A stretch of DNA of 64,000 nucleotides from Candidatus Gastranaerophilales bacterium (GTDB lineage: Bacteria; Cyanobacteriota; Vampirovibrionia; Gastranaerophilales; Gastranaerophilaceae). The notes under the pieces are model-generated. The model was not told the origin of the DNA, searched no databases, and saw only the letters and a list, made by a program, of their open reading frames with translations. Position 1 is the stretch's first letter, and every line of letters begins with the position of its first letter. Both the position numbers and the translations under genes were made by a program. Shown piece after piece: positions 37,701-61,683 of this stretch. The stretch spans positions 1 to 64,000 of the forward strand of contig CALUQN010000003.1 in assembly GCA_944322945.1 (NCBI GenBank). The letters are read 5' to 3'.

Positions 37701-39199
37701 TATTTATTCCCCCTGACAAATAAAATTTTCAAAAGATATACACCTAAAAACATCATCACAAAGGAAATATTTATAAGTGAAATATTTGACAACATAACCT
37801 GCGGCACGTAGAGATTTCCACCGCAAAAAACAAAGACCGGTGCGACAAAAAATTCAACAGCAATATGCGGGAAAAGTCCTGCAAATAGAAGTATCAGTAC
37901 GAAACCACCAATTCTAAAAAGTCTGTAAATTCTATCTGAGCCGCCGGCGGTAATATTTTGCAAAATTTCAGCACCGGAACGTACTGAAAAAATTTCTATT
38001 ACAATGCATAAAACGAGCGACAATAAGAGTAGAATTGCAAAAACAATATTTTTAATTTCAAAACCGGCGAGTATTGAATTAAAAAGCAGCGCACAAGCCG
38101 CAAATGCACTCATAGGAGGTAGAGAGAAAAGTGTAAATAATAGTATCCCGCTGTAAATTTTATTAGATGGTAAAAATCTCTGCCACGAATTGATTGGCGC
38201 AGTCTCCTCTGATGTAACTGCTGAAATAAGCAGTGCAGGTATCCCAATTATTTGATTAAACATGAAAAAATACACTGCAAATAATGCACTTGCCATCGTC
38301 GGCAAATGTCTTAGAATAATTCCGAACATTGACACTGCTAAAGCAACTAGCATAAGTCCAAAATTTTTGCATGAAAGGTTCCATATTCTATCTGTAGAAT
38401 TTCCTGTATTTGCAGATAAAACTCCTCGGTATGCAATAAAAAATCCTGTTACAAGAATAATATATGTAATAAATTCTTCGGGTCTCTGCCATAAAAACAA
38501 AAATCTTACCAGTATATAGGCTATAGAAGTTATGCCGACTGATGAGAATAAAAGCAACGGCATATTAAAATTGTATTCTTTTTTATAAGCAGTAAAAGCA
38601 GCGCTTACGCAGGCCAAAGAACCTATTAAAATAAGTGCAAACGCATAAGGAGATATTGCACCATATAGTCTTCCGAATTCAATTGTTCCGGACTGCTTAA
38701 AAATAAAGACAAAAGCCGCAGCAATCAGTAATAAACCAATTTGTGAGAGAATAAAATATTTTTTCGCAGCTTTACACAAAAATAAAAACGATAATAACAT
38801 TACATCTAAATACAAGCAGAATAGTGCGGCATTTACACTGCATAATAAAGCAAAAAATGCAGCTACTGAAATTCCGCACAGCGCAATATCATTTTTGCCT
38901 GACTCCAGAAAATATTTTTTGCAGTTGAGTACAATTAAAAAAACAGCTATAGATGAAAAAAGTATAATCGGTGCTGCAATATTATCAAGCACAAATGTAA
39001 AATTAATTTTACCGGCAGCGAAATTTATATAATCACTGCTGAGGCTCCTGACTGCTTTAAAAGCGGGTACCCCTGCAAGACAAGCACATATAAAGCTTGA
39101 AACAAGGATAAAATAGTACCTTACAGAAGTATTTTTGAACAGCATCTGTACAAGAGAAGAAAATAAGTAAAGGCATAGAGCTGTTAACAATAACGTCAT
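37700..39199 (-). CDS. NuoL/NuoN/HyfB-like antiporter-type membrane protein, divergent
   Basis: A 499-residue protein with about 14 membrane helices. It matches the general plan of Mrp-type antiporter subunits of complex I and group 4 hydrogenases (NuoL/M/N, HyfB). The segment near FTLFSLPPMSAFAACALLFNSILAGF corresponds to the 'LPPLSGF' helix. The key lysine and histidine motifs of proton-pumping members (for example the HALFKALLF type) are not evident. It lies 12 bp downstream of pyrG in the same operon and is followed by the NuoH-like partner. No hydrogenase or dehydrogenase catalytic subunit is present nearby. Confidence 0.55.
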   Translation of the reverse strand: MTLLLTALCLYLFSSLVQMLFKNTSVRYYFILVSSFICACLAGVPAFKAVRSLSSDYINFAAGKINFTFVLDNIAAPIILFSSIAVFLIVLNCKKYFLESGKNDIALCGISVAAFFALLCSVNAALFCLYLDVMLLSFLFLCKAAKKYFILSQIGLLLIAAAFVFIFKQSGTIEFGRLYGAISPYAFALILIGSLACVSAAFTAYKKEYNFNMPLLLFSSVGITSIAYILVRFLFLWQRPEEFITYIILVTGFFIAYRGVLSANTGNSTDRIWNLSCKNFGLMLVALAVSMFGIILRHLPTMASALFAVYFFMFNQIIGIPALLISAVTSEETAPINSWQRFLPSNKIYSGILLFTLFSLPPMSAFAACALLFNSILAGFEIKNIVFAILLLLSLVLCIVIEIFSVRSGAEILQNITAGGSDRIYRLFRIGGFVLILLFAGLFPHIAVEFFVAPVFVFCGGNLYVPQVMLSNISLINISFVMMFLGVYLLKILFVRGNK

Positions 39200-52225: not shown

Positions 52226-52301
52226 GGGTTTGTAGCTCAGTAGGAAGAGCAACGGTTTCCTAAACCGGAGATCGCGGGTTCGACTCCCGCCAGGCCCACC
52301 A
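52226..52301 (+). tRNA. tRNA-Arg (anticodon CCT), CCA encoded; integration target
   Basis: A full cloverleaf. The acceptor GGGTTTG pairs with CAGGCCC (two G-U pairs); the D stem is GCTC/GAGC; the anticodon loop is TTCCTAA; the T arm is GCGGG-TTCGACT-CCCGC. It encodes CCA. The first anticodon-stem pair is A-G. The 3' half probably doubles as the attL core of the element to the right, since the recombinase gene ends inside it. Confidence 0.92.
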
Positions 52302-53754
52302 TATTGAAAATAACACTGTTGAACATTAGTTTGACAGTGTTTTTTAGTTCTATTGTTAGGTTTTCACCATCCCACAAAAAGTGTGAGGTAAGTAATTTTA
52401 ACAGAATGCGTTTTTGTTCGTTATTGTTCTTCATATACACGCTGTAAGCGTTTTTGCAAAGTGTGAGGATTGTTTCAGCCCGGTCAAGAATTTCATCAGA
52501 TTCAGAGCTTAAATAATCAAATTGAACCCGGAGTTCATCAAGTTCAGTTTGCCATTCTTCATGCTTATCAAAATAAAATTCTTCAGTAATTGTGCCGTCA
52601 AGTTTATCAACATAAAGCTGATTCAATCGTTTTTTCAAAATATTTATTTTCTTTTGCATTTCTTCGAGCGAATTTGTTTCATATTTTTCTTTACCCTGAA
52701 GTATGTTTTTTAATGTGTTCATTACATTTTCAACAAATTCAGGTGGGCAGCTTAAATTTTTAAGCATATTTTCAACCATTTCATCAACATATTCTTCTTT
52801 AAGAAGTTTAAGCCCTTTATCTTTGACATCAGTGCTTCTGTAATAGATATATTTGCCTTTTTTAATATCACCTACAAGAGAATAGCCATTTGGCGATTTT
52901 ATAAGCCCGGAATATAAGAAATCGTGCTTCTTTAAATGTGGTGAAGTCTTTGAATGAATTATTTTTTGGACAGTATAAAACAATTCTTTTGAAATAAGCG
53001 GTGTGTGCTTAGCATCATAATATCTTTTGCCTTTATAATTAAATTCACCCATATAAAACGGATTGTTTAAAATAAGTTCAATATTCCTTTTATAACATTT
53101 TCTTTTGCCTATCATGAACCCTTCAGAAGCAAGTTTTTGGGCAAGTGTTTCATAAGAATATAAACCAGTTGAATATAATTCAAAAGCCCTTATAACAAAA
53201 TGTGCTTTGTCTGTATCAACTAATATTGTTGTTTTCTTTTTGCTGGTTCTATGGTTTTTATAGCCGATTGGAACACGTGCAGGAAAATGCCCTTCTTCAG
53301 CGGCTTCAATCATTCCTTTTTTAACTTCATTTGAAAGATTTCTTGGATATAAAGAAGAAACTGCTGAAAACATCATAAAAATAAAAATCTCATACGGTGT
53401 AGAATTTTTATTTAAAATCATGTTATCTTTTACCAGATGCACAGAAACTTCTGTTTTCATAAACAGATTTTTCACAGTTGCTGCGTCATCTTCATTTCTT
53501 AATAGCCTGTCATTTTTTTCACACAAAAGATGGCAGGCTTTTTTTTGTGTCCTTAAAAATTTCAGCATTTTTGTGAACTCTTTTCTGCCTGCTTCCTTTG
53601 CAGTTGTGCTTTCAGCAAAAATGTGAATTATTTCAAAATTGTTTCTTGCAGCATAATCTTTCAAATATTTTAATTGGGCAGGTATTGAAAACCCACCTTC
53701 TTCCTGTTCTTTACTTGATACCCTTACATATATAACTGCTTGCTGTTTTGCCAT
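52237..53754 (-). CDS. large serine recombinase (integrase)
   Basis: A 505-residue site-specific recombinase. The resolvase-type catalytic domain (1-145) has YVRVSSKEQ with nucleophile Ser13, and EKNDRLLRN in the expected arginine region. The recombinase domain follows with GMIEAAEEGHFPARVPIGYK. The zinc-ribbon cysteines usual in large serine integrases are absent; the region YSGLIKSPNGYSLVG has none. A coiled-coil segment (about 375-430) is kept. The last ~21 residues (MVGLAGVEPAISGLGNRC...) are the antisense translation of the tRNA-Arg gene, so this end arises from integration. AAAGG precedes the ATG. It is the last gene of the repressor operon. Confidence 0.9.
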   Translation of the reverse strand: MAKQQAVIYVRVSSKEQEEGGFSIPAQLKYLKDYAARNNFEIIHIFAESTTAKEAGRKEFTKMLKFLRTQKKACHLLCEKNDRLLRNEDDAATVKNLFMKTEVSVHLVKDNMILNKNSTPYEIFIFMMFSAVSSLYPRNLSNEVKKGMIEAAEEGHFPARVPIGYKNHRTSKKKTTILVDTDKAHFVIRAFELYSTGLYSYETLAQKLASEGFMIGKRKCYKRNIELILNNPFYMGEFNYKGKRYYDAKHTPLISKELFYTVQKIIHSKTSPHLKKHDFLYSGLIKSPNGYSLVGDIKKGKYIYYRSTDVKDKGLKLLKEEYVDEMVENMLKNLSCPPEFVENVMNTLKNILQGKEKYETNSLEEMQKKINILKKRLNQLYVDKLDGTITEEFYFDKHEEWQTELDELRVQFDYLSSESDEILDRAETILTLCKNAYSVYMKNNNEQKRILLKLLTSHFLWDGENLTIELKNTVKLMFNSVIFNMVGLAGVEPAISGLGNRCSSY

Positions 53755-54751: not shown

Positions 54752-54878
54752 TTGACAAATGTTTTATTACTATCTATTGACAAATGTTTATTGTTTGTTT
54801 TATACTTATCTTATCAAAAGTTATACATTTAATATTAACGAAAGGAGAAGTATTTTGCAACCTTTATTGACAAATGTT
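54752..54878. promoter_or_regulatory. operator region with three 12-bp repeats and rightward promoter
   Basis: TTGACAAATGTT occurs at 54752, 54777 and 54867. With flanking bases it approaches a dyad (TTGACA-AA-TGTTAA). The copy at 54777 supplies the TTGACA -35 of a promoter whose -10 is TATACT at 54801-54806 (18-bp spacing). The third copy lies at codons 5-8 of the first early gene. The arrangement fits repressor operators that also cover the promoter. Confidence 0.7.
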
Positions 54879-55055
54879 AAGGAATACGGTGTTGAGGATA
54901 TAACAAAAGTTATTCCAATAGGTGAGCAACAAGTCCGTAGATACATAAAAACAGGCGAATTAAAAGCCACCATGAAAAGAAACCGTTACAGAGTAGCTGA
55001 AGAAGATTTGAAAACCTTTATGGTTGAAAAAGGCTTCACAAATTTGAACTTATAG
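54855..55055 (+). CDS. small HTH DNA-binding protein, excisionase-like
   Basis: A 66-residue protein. I choose the TTG start with AAAGGAG 7 bp upstream; the frame stays open upstream but lacks a usable start signal and would overlap the operators. The centre VIPIGEQQVRRYIKTGELKATMKRNRYRVAEEDLKTFM is a MerR/excisionase-type winged helix ('helix-turn-helix 17' style), in which RNRYRV forms the wing. As the first rightward gene it may be the excisionase/recombination directionality factor or a Cro-like regulator. Confidence 0.78.
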   Translation: MQPLLTNVKEYGVEDITKVIPIGEQQVRRYIKTGELKATMKRNRYRVAEEDLKTFMVEKGFTNLNL

Positions 55056-55821: not shown

Positions 55822-57267
55822 GTGGCAAAAATTACAAAAATTTTAATCAAAAATCTTTTTGGTATATCGGAGTTTGAAGCCGATTCAAAAAGTATTGAAC
55901 TTTTAGGCGGCAACGGTACAGGCAAAACTTCTGTTCTTGATGCAATCCGTTTGGCATTAACAAACAGAAGTTCAAGGGATTGTATTGTTAAGCGTGGCGA
56001 AACTGAAGGTGAAATTATTATTGAAACTGATTCCGGCTTAACTATTACAAGAAAACCCCGAACAAATAAAACCGACTACAAAAGCATTAAACAAGACGGC
56101 AAAGAAGTTCAAAGCCCTGAAGCATTTCTGTCTGAAATCTTTTCAGAATTACAGTTAAACCCTGTTGCATTTATTAATATGGATGCAAAAGAACAAAACA
56201 GAATTATTCTTGACCTTATCGAATACAAATGGGATTTGAACACAATCAAAGAGTGGTTTGGCGAAATTCCACAAGGTGTGGATTACCAAAAACACATTCT
56301 TGAAGTATTACAACAAATTGCCGCTGAAGATGGTTTTTATTTCCAACAAAGACAAAACATAAACAGAGATATAAGAAATAAAAAAGCCTTTATTGAAGAA
56401 ATAATGAAGGAATTGCCGGAAAATTTCAATGCTGCAAAGTGGGAAGCCTACGAACTGCAAGAAATTCATTCAAAAATTGAAAAGGCAAGGCAGCACAATG
56501 CACAGATTGAAAAAGCCGAAACCTTAAAAGCTAACTATGACAATAAAATAAGAGGGTTTCAAGCTGTAAAAGAACTTGAAGAACAAAGACTGTTTAAAGG
56601 ACTTCAAGAAAGAGAAAGTGAACTAAAAGCAAATATTGCAAAACTTCAAGAAATGCTTAATTCTGCACAAAAAGAATTAAATTCACTCAACGATGTTTGT
56701 TCAGATAAAAAAGCCGTTATTGAAGCAAATTATGAAAAGCAAGTTGCACAATTCAATGAAGAATTAAAAGCATTTGAACCTTATTTGCAGCAACAAAAAA
56801 TTGACATCGTGCCAATGCAAGAAGAAGCTGCTGAAGCACTCAAAATGAAGCAGCAGTTGCCGCAATATAACAAAATGCTTGCAATGAATAATGAATTGGC
56901 TGACCTTCAGGCTGCATCAGATGAATTTACAAGAAAAATTGAACTTGCAAGGACTTTACCGGCACAGATTCTTGCTGAAGCAAATTTGCCACTTGGTGAA
57001 ATGAGTATTGACGGCGATCAAGTTCTTATTAAAAAGCCAAATGGTGATTTGCCAATTAGCAATTTGTCTGAAGGTGAAAAACTTGACCTTTGTGTTGATA
57101 TTGCCTTGAAAAACAAAACAGGCTTGCAAATTGTGTTGATTGATGGAGTTGAAAAACTTTCACCAATTAACAGGCAACACTTATATGAACGTTGCAAGGC
57201 TTCAGGGCTTCAATTTATTGCAACAAGAACAACGGCTGACAATGAACTTACAGTGGTTGAGTTATGA
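55822..57267 (+). CDS. SMC/Rad50/SbcC-like ABC-ATPase of the recombination module
   Basis: A 481-residue ABC-type ATPase of the SbcC/RecF/Rad50 class. Walker A is GGNGTGKTSVLDAIRLAL (residues about 29-46). The central region (about 165-400) is a long coiled coil with a hinge-like break. The signature NLSEGEKLDLCVDIAL and Walker B LQIVLIDGVEKLS complete the head. There is no fused nuclease. The start is GTG, with AGGAG 8 bp upstream; an ATG five bases earlier is out of frame. Such phage ATPases usually work with RecE/RecT-type recombination, and recT lies three genes downstream. The role is inferred from context. Confidence 0.88.
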   Translation: MAKITKILIKNLFGISEFEADSKSIELLGGNGTGKTSVLDAIRLALTNRSSRDCIVKRGETEGEIIIETDSGLTITRKPRTNKTDYKSIKQDGKEVQSPEAFLSEIFSELQLNPVAFINMDAKEQNRIILDLIEYKWDLNTIKEWFGEIPQGVDYQKHILEVLQQIAAEDGFYFQQRQNINRDIRNKKAFIEEIMKELPENFNAAKWEAYELQEIHSKIEKARQHNAQIEKAETLKANYDNKIRGFQAVKELEEQRLFKGLQERESELKANIAKLQEMLNSAQKELNSLNDVCSDKKAVIEANYEKQVAQFNEELKAFEPYLQQQKIDIVPMQEEAAEALKMKQQLPQYNKMLAMNNELADLQAASDEFTRKIELARTLPAQILAEANLPLGEMSIDGDQVLIKKPNGDLPISNLSEGEKLDLCVDIALKNKTGLQIVLIDGVEKLSPINRQHLYERCKASGLQFIATRTTADNELTVVEL

Positions 57268-58077: not shown

Positions 58078-59139
58078 ATGACAGATGAAAAAACTATTGA
58101 AAATTTTTTAATGACAGTTGAAAGCAATCTTGCAACTACCCTTGCAGCAAAAGCGGCTGCATTGCCTGATGGTTTTCAGGCTGCCAAATTCCAACAGAAT
58201 TGCATTGCAATGCTTAAAGGAATAAAAAAACAAGATTTAATGAAAATCAAAGCAGAAGATGTTGTGTCCTGTTTAATGAAGGGGGCTTTGCTTGATTTAG
58301 ATTTTGCAAGCGGTGAATGCTATGCAATACCTTATTGGAATAAAGAAGAAGGCAAAAATGATTTGAATTTCCAAACCGATTACAAAGGGGAAGATAAAAT
58401 TGCCAAAACTTACAGCATCAAACCGATTTTCAACACTATTAAAGAAGTTATCAGGGAAGGTGATGAATATCAAAAAATTGTTGAAGATGGCAATGTAAAG
58501 TTCTTCTTTAAACCTATTCCATTAAATAATGGAAAAATTAAAGGGGCATTTGCACAAGTATTATTCACAGATGGTTCTTCTATCGGTGAAGAAATGACAG
58601 TTGAAGAACTGGAAGAAATAAAAAAGAATTTTTCAAAAGCAAAAGATTCACCTGCTTACCAAAAAACACCGGGTGAAATGTATAAAAAAATCGTTCTTAG
58701 AAGAACATTGAAAAATGTTGCAAAAAGTTTTAAAAATTCTGCTCAAACCATTGCTTATGCAACTTGTTCTGATTTTGAATTTAACAACAAAACCGGTGTT
58801 TCAAACAATTCTGAAGAAATAAGAAACCCTTTTGCAAATGCTTTGCCTGTAAATAATCAGCAAGCACTTACAACAAATGTTCAAAATACGACCGCCAAAA
58901 TGCCACAGAACGAATTTTTACAACCCGAAGCAACAGTTATTACATCAGAAACAGAAAATTCAATTCAAGGGCATTCTGACGTGTCTGAATACGAAAAAGA
59001 AGAAACTATTGAAACAATATATGAATGTACAAACTGCGGTTCAATAATCAATCAAGCAGAAGATTCATATTCAAGAAGAAATTATGGCAAACCGCTTTGC
59101 CGTAATTGTCAAGCACTTGCAAAGAATGGGGAGTTGTAA
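58078..59139 (+). CDS. recT: RecT-family single-strand annealing protein with zinc-ribbon tail
   Basis: A 353-residue phage recombinase of the RecT family. It anneals ssDNA made by a RecE-type exonuclease. The family core runs about 10-240 (QAAKFQQNCIAML, ALLDLDFASGECYAIPYWN, GEMYKKIVLRRTLKN). The last ~110 residues are not typical: a Ser/Thr/Gln linker followed by CTNCG and CRNC, a possible four-cysteine zinc ribbon. The true ATG is the second in a doubled 'ATGACAG' run; the first soon stops. AAAGGAG lies about 10 bp upstream. The RecE-like gene follows after 3 bp. Confidence 0.92.
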   Translation: MTDEKTIENFLMTVESNLATTLAAKAAALPDGFQAAKFQQNCIAMLKGIKKQDLMKIKAEDVVSCLMKGALLDLDFASGECYAIPYWNKEEGKNDLNFQTDYKGEDKIAKTYSIKPIFNTIKEVIREGDEYQKIVEDGNVKFFFKPIPLNNGKIKGAFAQVLFTDGSSIGEEMTVEELEEIKKNFSKAKDSPAYQKTPGEMYKKIVLRRTLKNVAKSFKNSAQTIAYATCSDFEFNNKTGVSNNSEEIRNPFANALPVNNQQALTTNVQNTTAKMPQNEFLQPEATVITSETENSIQGHSDVSEYEKEETIETIYECTNCGSIINQAEDSYSRRNYGKPLCRNCQALAKNGEL

Positions 59140-59142
59140 GAA

Positions 59143-59955
59143 GTGTTTTTGACTGAAAGCAATTACTATTCACAACAGGCAAACTGGGAATATTTAAGCG
59201 TAAGCCAATATAAAGATTTTATTGGCACGCTTGGAAAACCCGGTTGTGAAGCACGTGCAATGGCAAAATTGCGTGGCGAATGGGAAGATGAAACAACCAC
59301 AGCAATGCTTGTTGGTTCTTATGTTGATGCACATTTTGAAGGAACTCTTGACTGGTTCAGAGCCAAACACCCTGAATTTTTTAAGAAAAATTCTGAATTA
59401 AAAGCTGCTTACCAAAAAGCTGAAGAAGTTATTCAAAGAATTGAACGTGATGAATTCTTTATGCTTTGCATGAGCGGTGAAAAACAAGTGATTCTGACTG
59501 CTGAATTATTTGGGGCAATGTGGAAGGGTAAACTTGACAGTTACCACAACAGAAAAAGCCCCTATAACAGTATTGTTGATTTAAAAGTTGTAAAAGATTT
59601 GCATGAAAGATTTTGGATAAAGGACTTAGGGCAGTTTGTTTCTTTCATTGAATATTGGGGGTATGACCTTCAGGGGGCAATTTACCAACTACTTGAACAA
59701 GCTGTTTATGGCGGTGAAAAAGTGCCGTTTTCCATTGCTGCTGCGGATAAACAAAAAACTATTGATATTGAAGTTATTGGCTTAAAACAGCGTGATATGG
59801 ACAATGCACTGCTTGGAATAGAAGGAAACGTTAAAAGAATTATTGATTTAAAAGCCGGTAAAGTCGAGCCGGTAAGGTGCGGCAAATGCGATTATTGCAA
59901 ATTTACAAAAAAGCTGACCGCCCCAATAAGCACAGATATGTTAATTGAGGTATAG
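59143..59955 (+). CDS. PD-(D/E)XK exonuclease, RecE-like
   Basis: A 270-residue nuclease of the RecB/RecE type. Acidic residues fit the fold: His64 in SYVDAHFEG, Asp132 in KGKLDSYH, Asp146-x-Lys148 in VDLKVV, and Gln177-xxx-Tyr181 in QGAIY. The C-terminus ends with three cysteines (CGKCDYC), as in many Cas4/RecE-like iron-sulfur or zinc tails. With RecT it should resect and anneal DNA ends. The start is GTG with GGGAG 10 bp upstream, inside the end of recT. Confidence 0.88.
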   Translation: MFLTESNYYSQQANWEYLSVSQYKDFIGTLGKPGCEARAMAKLRGEWEDETTTAMLVGSYVDAHFEGTLDWFRAKHPEFFKKNSELKAAYQKAEEVIQRIERDEFFMLCMSGEKQVILTAELFGAMWKGKLDSYHNRKSPYNSIVDLKVVKDLHERFWIKDLGQFVSFIEYWGYDLQGAIYQLLEQAVYGGEKVPFSIAAADKQKTIDIEVIGLKQRDMDNALLGIEGNVKRIIDLKAGKVEPVRCGKCDYCKFTKKLTAPISTDMLIEV

Positions 59956-59960
59956 AGAGA

Positions 59961-60908
59961 GTGGCAAACGTACAGTTAAAAAATGGCTATACAAAGATAG
60001 TGAATAATCTTTTAGAACAGTTTTTTATAAGAGATTTTTCACCAATACAATTAAGAATTCTTTTGATGCTGATAAGGTTTTCTTATGGTTGCAATAAAAA
60101 AACTGCAAAAATTAAACCACAAAACCTTTTTAATACAGCTTATGTGTATGAAGGCGATATAAAAAGAGAATTAAAACACCTTGAAAGAAACAAAGTAATT
60201 ACCTGCAATTTTGAAAATAAAACATTTGCTTTGAATAAAAATTTTGATGAATGGAAAATTTCTTTTCACAAATTATTTGATGAAGAAAAATTTGCAAAAT
60301 TATTACACATAAATCTTAGTTGTGGACTAAGTGAAAACTTAGTTGACAACGAAGAAACAGAAGAAACTGAAAATGAAACTTTGTTGCCATCTAAGGAAAA
60401 CCTTAGTTGTGGGCTAAGTGAAAACTTAGTTGACAACGAAGAAATGAAAGCTGGAAACACAGATGCAGAAAGCAATTCAGGCACACCTAAAGAAAGTATA
60501 AATAAAGAAAAAGAAAATAATAATAATAAATATATATATAACCCTGATGATTCTTTAAAAACAACTAAAGAAAAAATTTTTAAAATAGATCCTTATATAA
60601 ACCCTTATAAAAAAATATTTACTGAAGAATATGAAAAGATTTTTAAAAGAGATTGTTTTTTAAACAACGCACAACATCTTAAATTAGTGGAAATTGCTGC
60701 CGAAATTCCAAATTTTAAAGAGTTAATTCCAACATTAGTTTTGAAATTTTCAAAAATTACTTTTGATTTTGATGGGGTAAAAAAACAGCCCGGCTTACGC
60801 TGGTTGCTTGAAGATGGCAACTGGGCTGGTGTCTTATCGGGTGAATTTGACAGCAATATTGAAGATACACAAATAAAAGGAAATAAAGACGATGGCTACA
60901 GTTATTAA
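59961..60908 (+). CDS. phage replication initiator, lambda O-like, carrying origin repeats
   Basis: A 315-residue initiator. The N-terminal ~100 residues match the phage replication protein O / winged-helix class: NGYTKIVNNLLEQFF, QLRILLMLIRFSYGCNKK. The middle (110-210) is polar and low complexity and includes NLSCGLSENLVDNEE twice. The DNA encoding that region holds the probable origin. The C-terminal part (215-300), with QPGLRWLLEDGNWAGVL, resembles the part that contacts the helicase loader. The start is GTG (gagagagtgGTG-like), just after the nuclease stop. The DnaC-like gene overlaps its end by 17 bp. Confidence 0.85.
   Translation: MANVQLKNGYTKIVNNLLEQFFIRDFSPIQLRILLMLIRFSYGCNKKTAKIKPQNLFNTAYVYEGDIKRELKHLERNKVITCNFENKTFALNKNFDEWKISFHKLFDEEKFAKLLHINLSCGLSENLVDNEETEETENETLLPSKENLSCGLSENLVDNEEMKAGNTDAESNSGTPKESINKEKENNNNKYIYNPDDSLKTTKEKIFKIDPYINPYKKIFTEEYEKIFKRDCFLNNAQHLKLVEIAAEIPNFKELIPTLVLKFSKITFDFDGVKKQPGLRWLLEDGNWAGVLSGEFDSNIEDTQIKGNKDDGYSY
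60315..60545 (+). other. putative phage replication origin (iterons plus AT-rich region)
   Basis: CTTAGTTG occurs at 60315, 60338, 60402 and 60425 in two pairs with 23-bp spacing. Each pair lies within a 45-bp block that is almost identical in both copies and contains a CTTAG/CTAAG dyad. About 60 bp further on comes an AT-rich run (60500-60545) including AATAATAATAATAAATATAT. Iterons followed by AT-rich DNA inside an O-type gene is the layout of the lambda origin. Confidence 0.65.
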
Positions 60909-61683
60909 CAATAGTGATTGGCAAAGTTCAGGGCAAATTATTGAAAACATTATTAAAGAAGCAGGCAAAAAACACATTTGCCCCAAATGCGGCAAGGAAG
61001 ATGTGCCTTGTGAAATAACACTGAACGGTGTAAAAAGAATTGTTTATGCTTCAAATTGTGATTGTTATGAAAAAGAACAAAAAGCAAAGGAAGAACAAAA
61101 AAGGAAAGAATGGCTTCAGGAGAAATTCAAAAATGCCAATATCGGCAAAAGATATATTGATATAACACTTGACAAACTTGAAGCTATGGGAACAGAAAAC
61201 ATTGCAGCTGCAAAAAAATATGTTGCAGATTTTAACCCTGAAAGCGGTGCAAGCATTCACATGATTGGCGAATTTGGCAATGGCAAGACATCAGAAGGCT
61301 ATGCAATTATTAAAGCCTTATTGCCAAAGTTTAATTGTGTTTCAATCACTTGGAATGAAATTGTAACACGTTGTTATTATGCAAAAGCATTTGATGCTTC
61401 AGAAACGATTGATCAAATACTGAAATGGTTATCACAATTTGACCTTATTATGATTGATGAATTTGTTATCAATATAAAAGATGACAAAGAAATAAATCTT
61501 GCAACGGCACTGTTTGATAACCTTTATAAAGATAACAAATGTTTTATTTTAATCAATAACCCCTGCGATATTGTGGACATGAAAAAAGTGCCACGCTTAG
61601 GCAAATTATTGGATAGGGTAAAAGATCAGGCGGAAATATTCACCTTCAAACATGAAAGTTACAGAGGGGTGAAAAATGCTTGA
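60892..61683 (+). CDS. dnaC: DnaC-like helicase-loader ATPase with N-terminal zinc motif
   Basis: A 263-residue AAA+ protein of the DnaC/IstB type. An N-terminal zinc-like part uses CPKCG (30-34), Cys40 and CDC (56-58). Walker A is GEFGNGKTS (126-134), Walker B is LIMIDEFVI, and the sensor region RLGKLLDRVKD is conserved. It should deliver the host replicative helicase to the O-type initiator encoded just upstream. The start is ATG within the end of the O gene. It overlaps the methyltransferase gene by 8 bp. Confidence 0.87.
   Translation: MATVINNSDWQSSGQIIENIIKEAGKKHICPKCGKEDVPCEITLNGVKRIVYASNCDCYEKEQKAKEEQKRKEWLQEKFKNANIGKRYIDITLDKLEAMGTENIAAAKKYVADFNPESGASIHMIGEFGNGKTSEGYAIIKALLPKFNCVSITWNEIVTRCYYAKAFDASETIDQILKWLSQFDLIMIDEFVINIKDDKEINLATALFDNLYKDNKCFILINNPCDIVDMKKVPRLGKLLDRVKDQAEIFTFKHESYRGVKNA

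Follow-up and report, generated by a model that had tools for sequence, protein, structure and literature searches.

Where does replication of the prophage that begins inside this stretch of DNA start, and do the short repeats within its initiator gene mark the place? The stretch, called the window hereafter, comprises positions 1 to 64,000 of contig CALUQN010000003.1 from a Candidatus Gastranaerophilales bacterium, and the gene in question encodes an O-type replication initiator. We conclude that positions 60315-60542 are very probably a prophage replication origin built like oriLambda and working by the binding, melting, and loading steps proposed below; the locus is best read as an origin of the lambda type carried by a prophage, a virus dormant in a gut bacterium of the Gastranaerophilales type. 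Computed here were the array of repeats and its palindromic form, the fact that it ignores the reading frame and persists while its letters change, the link of half-sites with DNA-contact residues, and the presence of unstable DNA nearby. The elements concerned are the following.

59961-60908, plus strand: O-type replication initiator gene (315 aa) containing the candidate origin; PF04492, phrog_16826, phrog_277, AlphaFold model.
60315-60331, plus strand: iteron 1, CTTAGTTGTGGACTAAG, 17-bp dyad, reading frame 0.
60338-60354, plus strand: iteron 2, CTTAGTTGACAACGAAG, a 17-bp dyad in reading frame 2, its start 23 bp after that of iteron 1.
60379-60395, plus strand: iteron 3, weaker, CTTTGTTGCCATCTAAG, a 17-bp dyad in reading frame 1, its start 41 bp after that of iteron 2 and 23 bp before that of iteron 4.
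60402-60418, plus strand: iteron 4, CTTAGTTGTGGGCTAAG, 17-bp dyad, reading frame 0.
60425-60441, plus strand: iteron 5, CTTAGTTGACAACGAAG, 17-bp dyad, reading frame 2.
60483-60542, no strand assigned: AT-rich tract and presumed unwinding element, ranking third for low stability among the 60-bp stretches of the window.
60892-61683, plus strand: DnaC-like helicase loader gene (phrog_50, E 3.4e-25), overlapping the end of the O gene.

An earlier reading of the letters alone (the sequence-only reading) had described four CTTAGTTG boxes in two pairs at 23-bp spacing, lying in a duplicated block of about 45 bp and followed by AT-rich DNA. There are indeed exactly four copies of CTTAGTTG in the window, all on the plus strand (60315 and 60338, 60402 and 60425), where 2.1 would be expected by chance on both strands, and the block is one of 47 bp (60311-60357) that recurs 87 bp later (60398-60444) at 96% identity and is found nowhere else in the 2.1-Mb genome at two mismatches or fewer. 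The AT-rich tract, too, is where it was said to be. The boxes are real, but they are better described as parts of larger units, because each CTTAGTTG site makes up the left half of a 17-bp palindrome, an imperfect one with the pattern CTTAGTTGnnnnCTAAG, and a fifth, weaker dyad, CTTTGTTGCCATCTAAG, had been overlooked. The array thus consists of five 17-bp dyads in 2+3 order, with spacings of 23, 41, 23, and 23 bp. When the codons of the gene were shuffled synonymously, keeping the protein, none of 1500 shuffles matched the array (score 18.5, against a null mean of 10.1 and a maximum of 15.9). This whole-array statistic was adopted after simpler ones, based on repeated 5-7-mers or on pairs of adjacent units only, had been seen to give weak or borderline results for the window gene, because shuffled AT-rich genes reach similar scores. 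Since the 23-bp pitch runs through three reading frames and no shuffle attains the observed score, the array is a feature of the DNA rather than of the protein. The repeated peptide would then best be seen as a by-product, the translation of a DNA element, as the sequence-only reading had suspected.

The identity of the gene is well supported and bears out its proposed location, inside an O-type gene and before a DnaC-like one. The protein matches PF04492 (Phage_rep_O) with an E-value of 1.2e-20 and 74.2 bits, above the gathering cut-off of 28.7, and it also matches phrog_16826 (E 1.9e-33) and phrog_277 (E 1.8e-13). Its score against TIGR01610 (phage replication protein O, N-terminal domain) is 42.1 bits, under the NCBIfam cut-off of 45.5, and O is therefore not filed under that equivalog. 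In the AlphaFold model a winged-helix DNA-binding domain (residues 1-120; recognition helix 64-76, wing 80-91) is joined by a disordered linker (121-214) to a C-terminal domain (215-300). A search of solved structures by sequence gave none matching O, and a fold search returned winged-helix regulators (MarR, GntR, Crp), none at E <= 0.001. The iterons (codons 119-161) and the AT-rich tract (codons 175-194) fall in the part of the gene that encodes this disordered linker; a stretch predicted to be of this kind can carry constraints acting at the level of DNA.

We gathered homologues of O from viral contigs and bacterial genomes. The comparison of iterons in related phages, which the sequence-only reading had proposed as a check, reveals repeats that are kept in layout and changed in sequence: the array is present in every close relative whose O gene was examinable over this region, at the same place and with the 23-bp pitch, spelled in other letters. 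The half-sites are TTAG in L003, TGTTTG in L004 and L113, ATAGT in L114, GTAAG in L016, and TGTAAC in L019, and no viral contig contains a second copy of the window's exact iteron pair. Two of the O genes, those of L114 and L113, are identical to genes in genomes of the window genome's own family (L017 and L021, respectively); named records of these relatives carry the names Gastranaerophilales or Melainabacteria, which would put the host in the same group. The contig L003 carries an eight-unit array following an 87-bp duplication inside the O gene (L003:5438-5524). Two base differences there move iterons towards the consensus, yet they create in-frame TAA and TAG codons, which would split the O protein in two; because this variant was found in one contig only, an assembly error is possible.

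The survey was then extended to 106 O-type genes, lambda included, which were gathered with conserved peptide patterns and are not an unbiased sample. In 80 of them the array scores above all 40 synonymous shuffles. A score threshold was passed by 81 of the 106 genes, against 1 of 102 and 1 of 104 equal-length flanking control stretches, the downstream control being that of L003, where the array extends beyond the stop codon. The commonest spacings between units are 23 and 24 bp, and on lambda the scan hit all four annotated iterons exactly where they lie. In 60 of 75 array-bearing genes, when 11 would be expected, the 40 bp of lowest stability in the gene are located at the array or shortly beyond it on the 3' side (the midpoint being required to fall from 10 bp before to 120 bp past the array end); in lambda, the same stability scan places the start of this segment at 39122, four bases after the end of iteron 4. 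Two further observations concern the survey set. The upstream control stretch that passes the threshold belongs to L035, where a second palindromic array, a very strong one with a score of 30.4, lies upstream of the O gene. Genes without an array above their shuffles include L070, L077, L086, L089, L090, L093, L096, L098, L110, L152, and L154; several arrayless genes have similar recognition helices, and their origin may lie elsewhere.

If O reads the dyads, half-sites should follow the protein. Across 54 representatives, the similarity of half-sites rises with that of the DNA-binding domains (none of 2000 permutations gave a value as high). When overall similarity is removed, the signal lies in residues 61-67, 44-51, and 80-84, which in the model are the start of the recognition helix, the segment just before the helix-turn-helix, and the wing, and the top peak was reached in 1 of 1000 permutations. 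With relatedness only partly controlled, this pattern is what direct reading of the half-site by the DNA-binding domain predicts. We put forward, as a proposal slightly less likely than not to hold, that O-type (PF04492) phages from several bacterial phyla commonly have in-gene origins and that a readable code links the start of the recognition helix (residues 61-67 of the window protein, above all 63) and the wing to the half-site. If this were true, one could forecast from sequence both where replication starts and which sites an initiator prefers, and the two partners, origin and initiator, would evolve together inside a single gene.

From this layout we infer initiator binding, melting, helicase loading, and firing. 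Dimers of O, made from the same gene, would bind the five dyads through their N-terminal winged helices, the bound dyads lying about two turns of the helix from one another. The nucleoprotein complex so formed would melt the AT-rich tract at 60483-60542, where the host replicative helicase would be loaded by the DnaC-like protein together with the C-terminal part of O. Rightward early transcription across the origin could activate it, as in lambda.

Some observations fit this account less well. Among the iterons, number 3 is weak and numbers 1 and 4 are imperfect as dyads; the AT-rich tract starts about 40 bp past the last iteron, further than in lambda; the array of L004, taken alone, is only moderately above its own shuffles (5 of 200 reach it); and 26 of the 106 surveyed genes are without an array above shuffles, so that O-type genes do not all carry one. 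Other functions of the repeats are conceivable. An initiator might bind its own gene mainly to shut off its transcription, with replication starting elsewhere, and the co-variation of half-sites with the DNA-binding domain would also fit such an operator. Yet the array is in the middle of the gene and not at a promoter, the least stable DNA of the gene follows it in most relatives, and in lambda the array at the corresponding position has been proven to be an origin, which together make an operator improbable.

Still less can be said for functions exerted through the protein or the messenger. Selection on a duplicated linker peptide, NLSCGLSENLVDNEE, would account for the in-frame repetition of the 47-bp block, by which the same 15 residues are encoded twice, but it would not explain units 23 bp apart in three frames, nor relatives that keep the DNA layout with other peptides, and the stretch is predicted to be disordered; we regard it as very unlikely. 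The dyads might instead form hairpins in the mRNA, serving, for instance, to regulate how O and the loader are translated, given that short stems are possible for units with perfect arms. This we consider equally remote, because half-sites follow the DNA-contact residues of the protein and, in the 54 representative genes, arm mismatches that RNA would tolerate (G-T on the coding strand) number 55, fewer than the 94 of the mirror class that it would not (A-C), a comparison that led us to disfavour a hairpin role.

The candidate origin belongs to a prophage whose left part lies within the window and whose remainder, with terminase, portal, and tail genes, extends past the end of the window. Two features of this left part matter here.

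52237-53754, minus strand: large serine recombinase at the start of the prophage; its 3' end overlaps the tRNA-Arg(CCT) gene.
54777-54806, plus strand: possible early rightward promoter (TTGACA, 18 nt, TATACT; 11/12 match to consensus).

The recombinase with its overlapping tRNA-Arg(CCT) gene (52226-53754) is likely to mark the left end of the prophage; a duplicated att core was sought in its right part and none was found. All early genes from 54759 onwards read rightward. The promoter-like site is a consensus match only and sits within a listed open reading frame (54759-55055); it is possible that transcription from it would run across the origin. The rightward row encodes a RecF-like ATPase, RecT, a PDDEXK exonuclease, the O-type protein, the DnaC-like protein, and a DNA methylase. 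The DnaC-like protein also matches NF005992 and NF005931 (DnaC), both below cut-off. Directly upstream of the O gene is a recombination module made of a RecF/SbcC-like ATPase, RecT, and the PDDEXK exonuclease (55822-57267 and 58078-59955). Beyond the window, the prophage contig carries a diversity-generating retroelement (genome contig C3, about 89431-92146; L167:5431-8146), in which a reverse transcriptase (PF00078) adjoins a tail protein with an Mtd domain (PF21916); its variable and template repeats are identical at 87 of 100 positions, and all 13 differences fall on template adenines.

These results provide a concrete and testable origin candidate for a prophage of Gastranaerophilales, which are relatives of cyanobacteria that do not photosynthesize; open-access papers were searched for Gastranaerophilales together with prophages, and none on their phages came up. 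The results also point to a wide spread of the lambda arrangement among O-type phages, in which half-sites shift together with the residues that read the DNA, and this joint change makes the specificity of O-family initiators open to prediction and experiment. Phage replication modules have reportedly been surveyed in general by Weigel and Seitz in 2006.

In lambda, the origin lies within O, where dimers of the protein bind 18-19 bp inverted repeats and an adjoining AT-rich region of 39-40 bp opens upon binding (PMC5043065, PMC7466680, PMC6022878); lambdoid phages with six iterons exist (PMC7466680). The parallel drawn by the sequence-only reading holds in its main lines: in both cases imperfect inverted-repeat iterons with a pitch of 20-24 bp lie midway along an O-type gene, downstream of the segment encoding the DNA-binding domain (nt 348-433 of O in lambda, 354-480 here), an AT-rich tract lies 3' of them, and a loader gene comes next. 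The window element differs in the length of its units (17-bp dyads instead of 18-19 bp), in its half-site (CTTAG(T) instead of ATCCC), in having five units in 2+3 order with a 41-bp gap, in the distance of about 40 bp between the last unit and the AT-rich tract, in the neighbouring loader, which is a DnaC-like ATPase and not the P protein that adjoins O in lambda, and in a host from outside the proteobacteria. Other phages and prophages with O-type genes (PF04492), for example those of Geobacillus (GBK2), Paenibacillus, and Brevibacillus, likewise have in-gene dyad arrays in which a 23- or 24-bp pitch dominates, but their half-sites are GTTAC, TTGGT, GTTCC, and others, varying with the recognition helix. 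Iteron plasmid origins share the combination of repeated initiator sites and an AT-rich region, whereas the sites described here are dyads within a coding region. The lambda-type in-gene origin is already known, and the window element adds another case of that kind.
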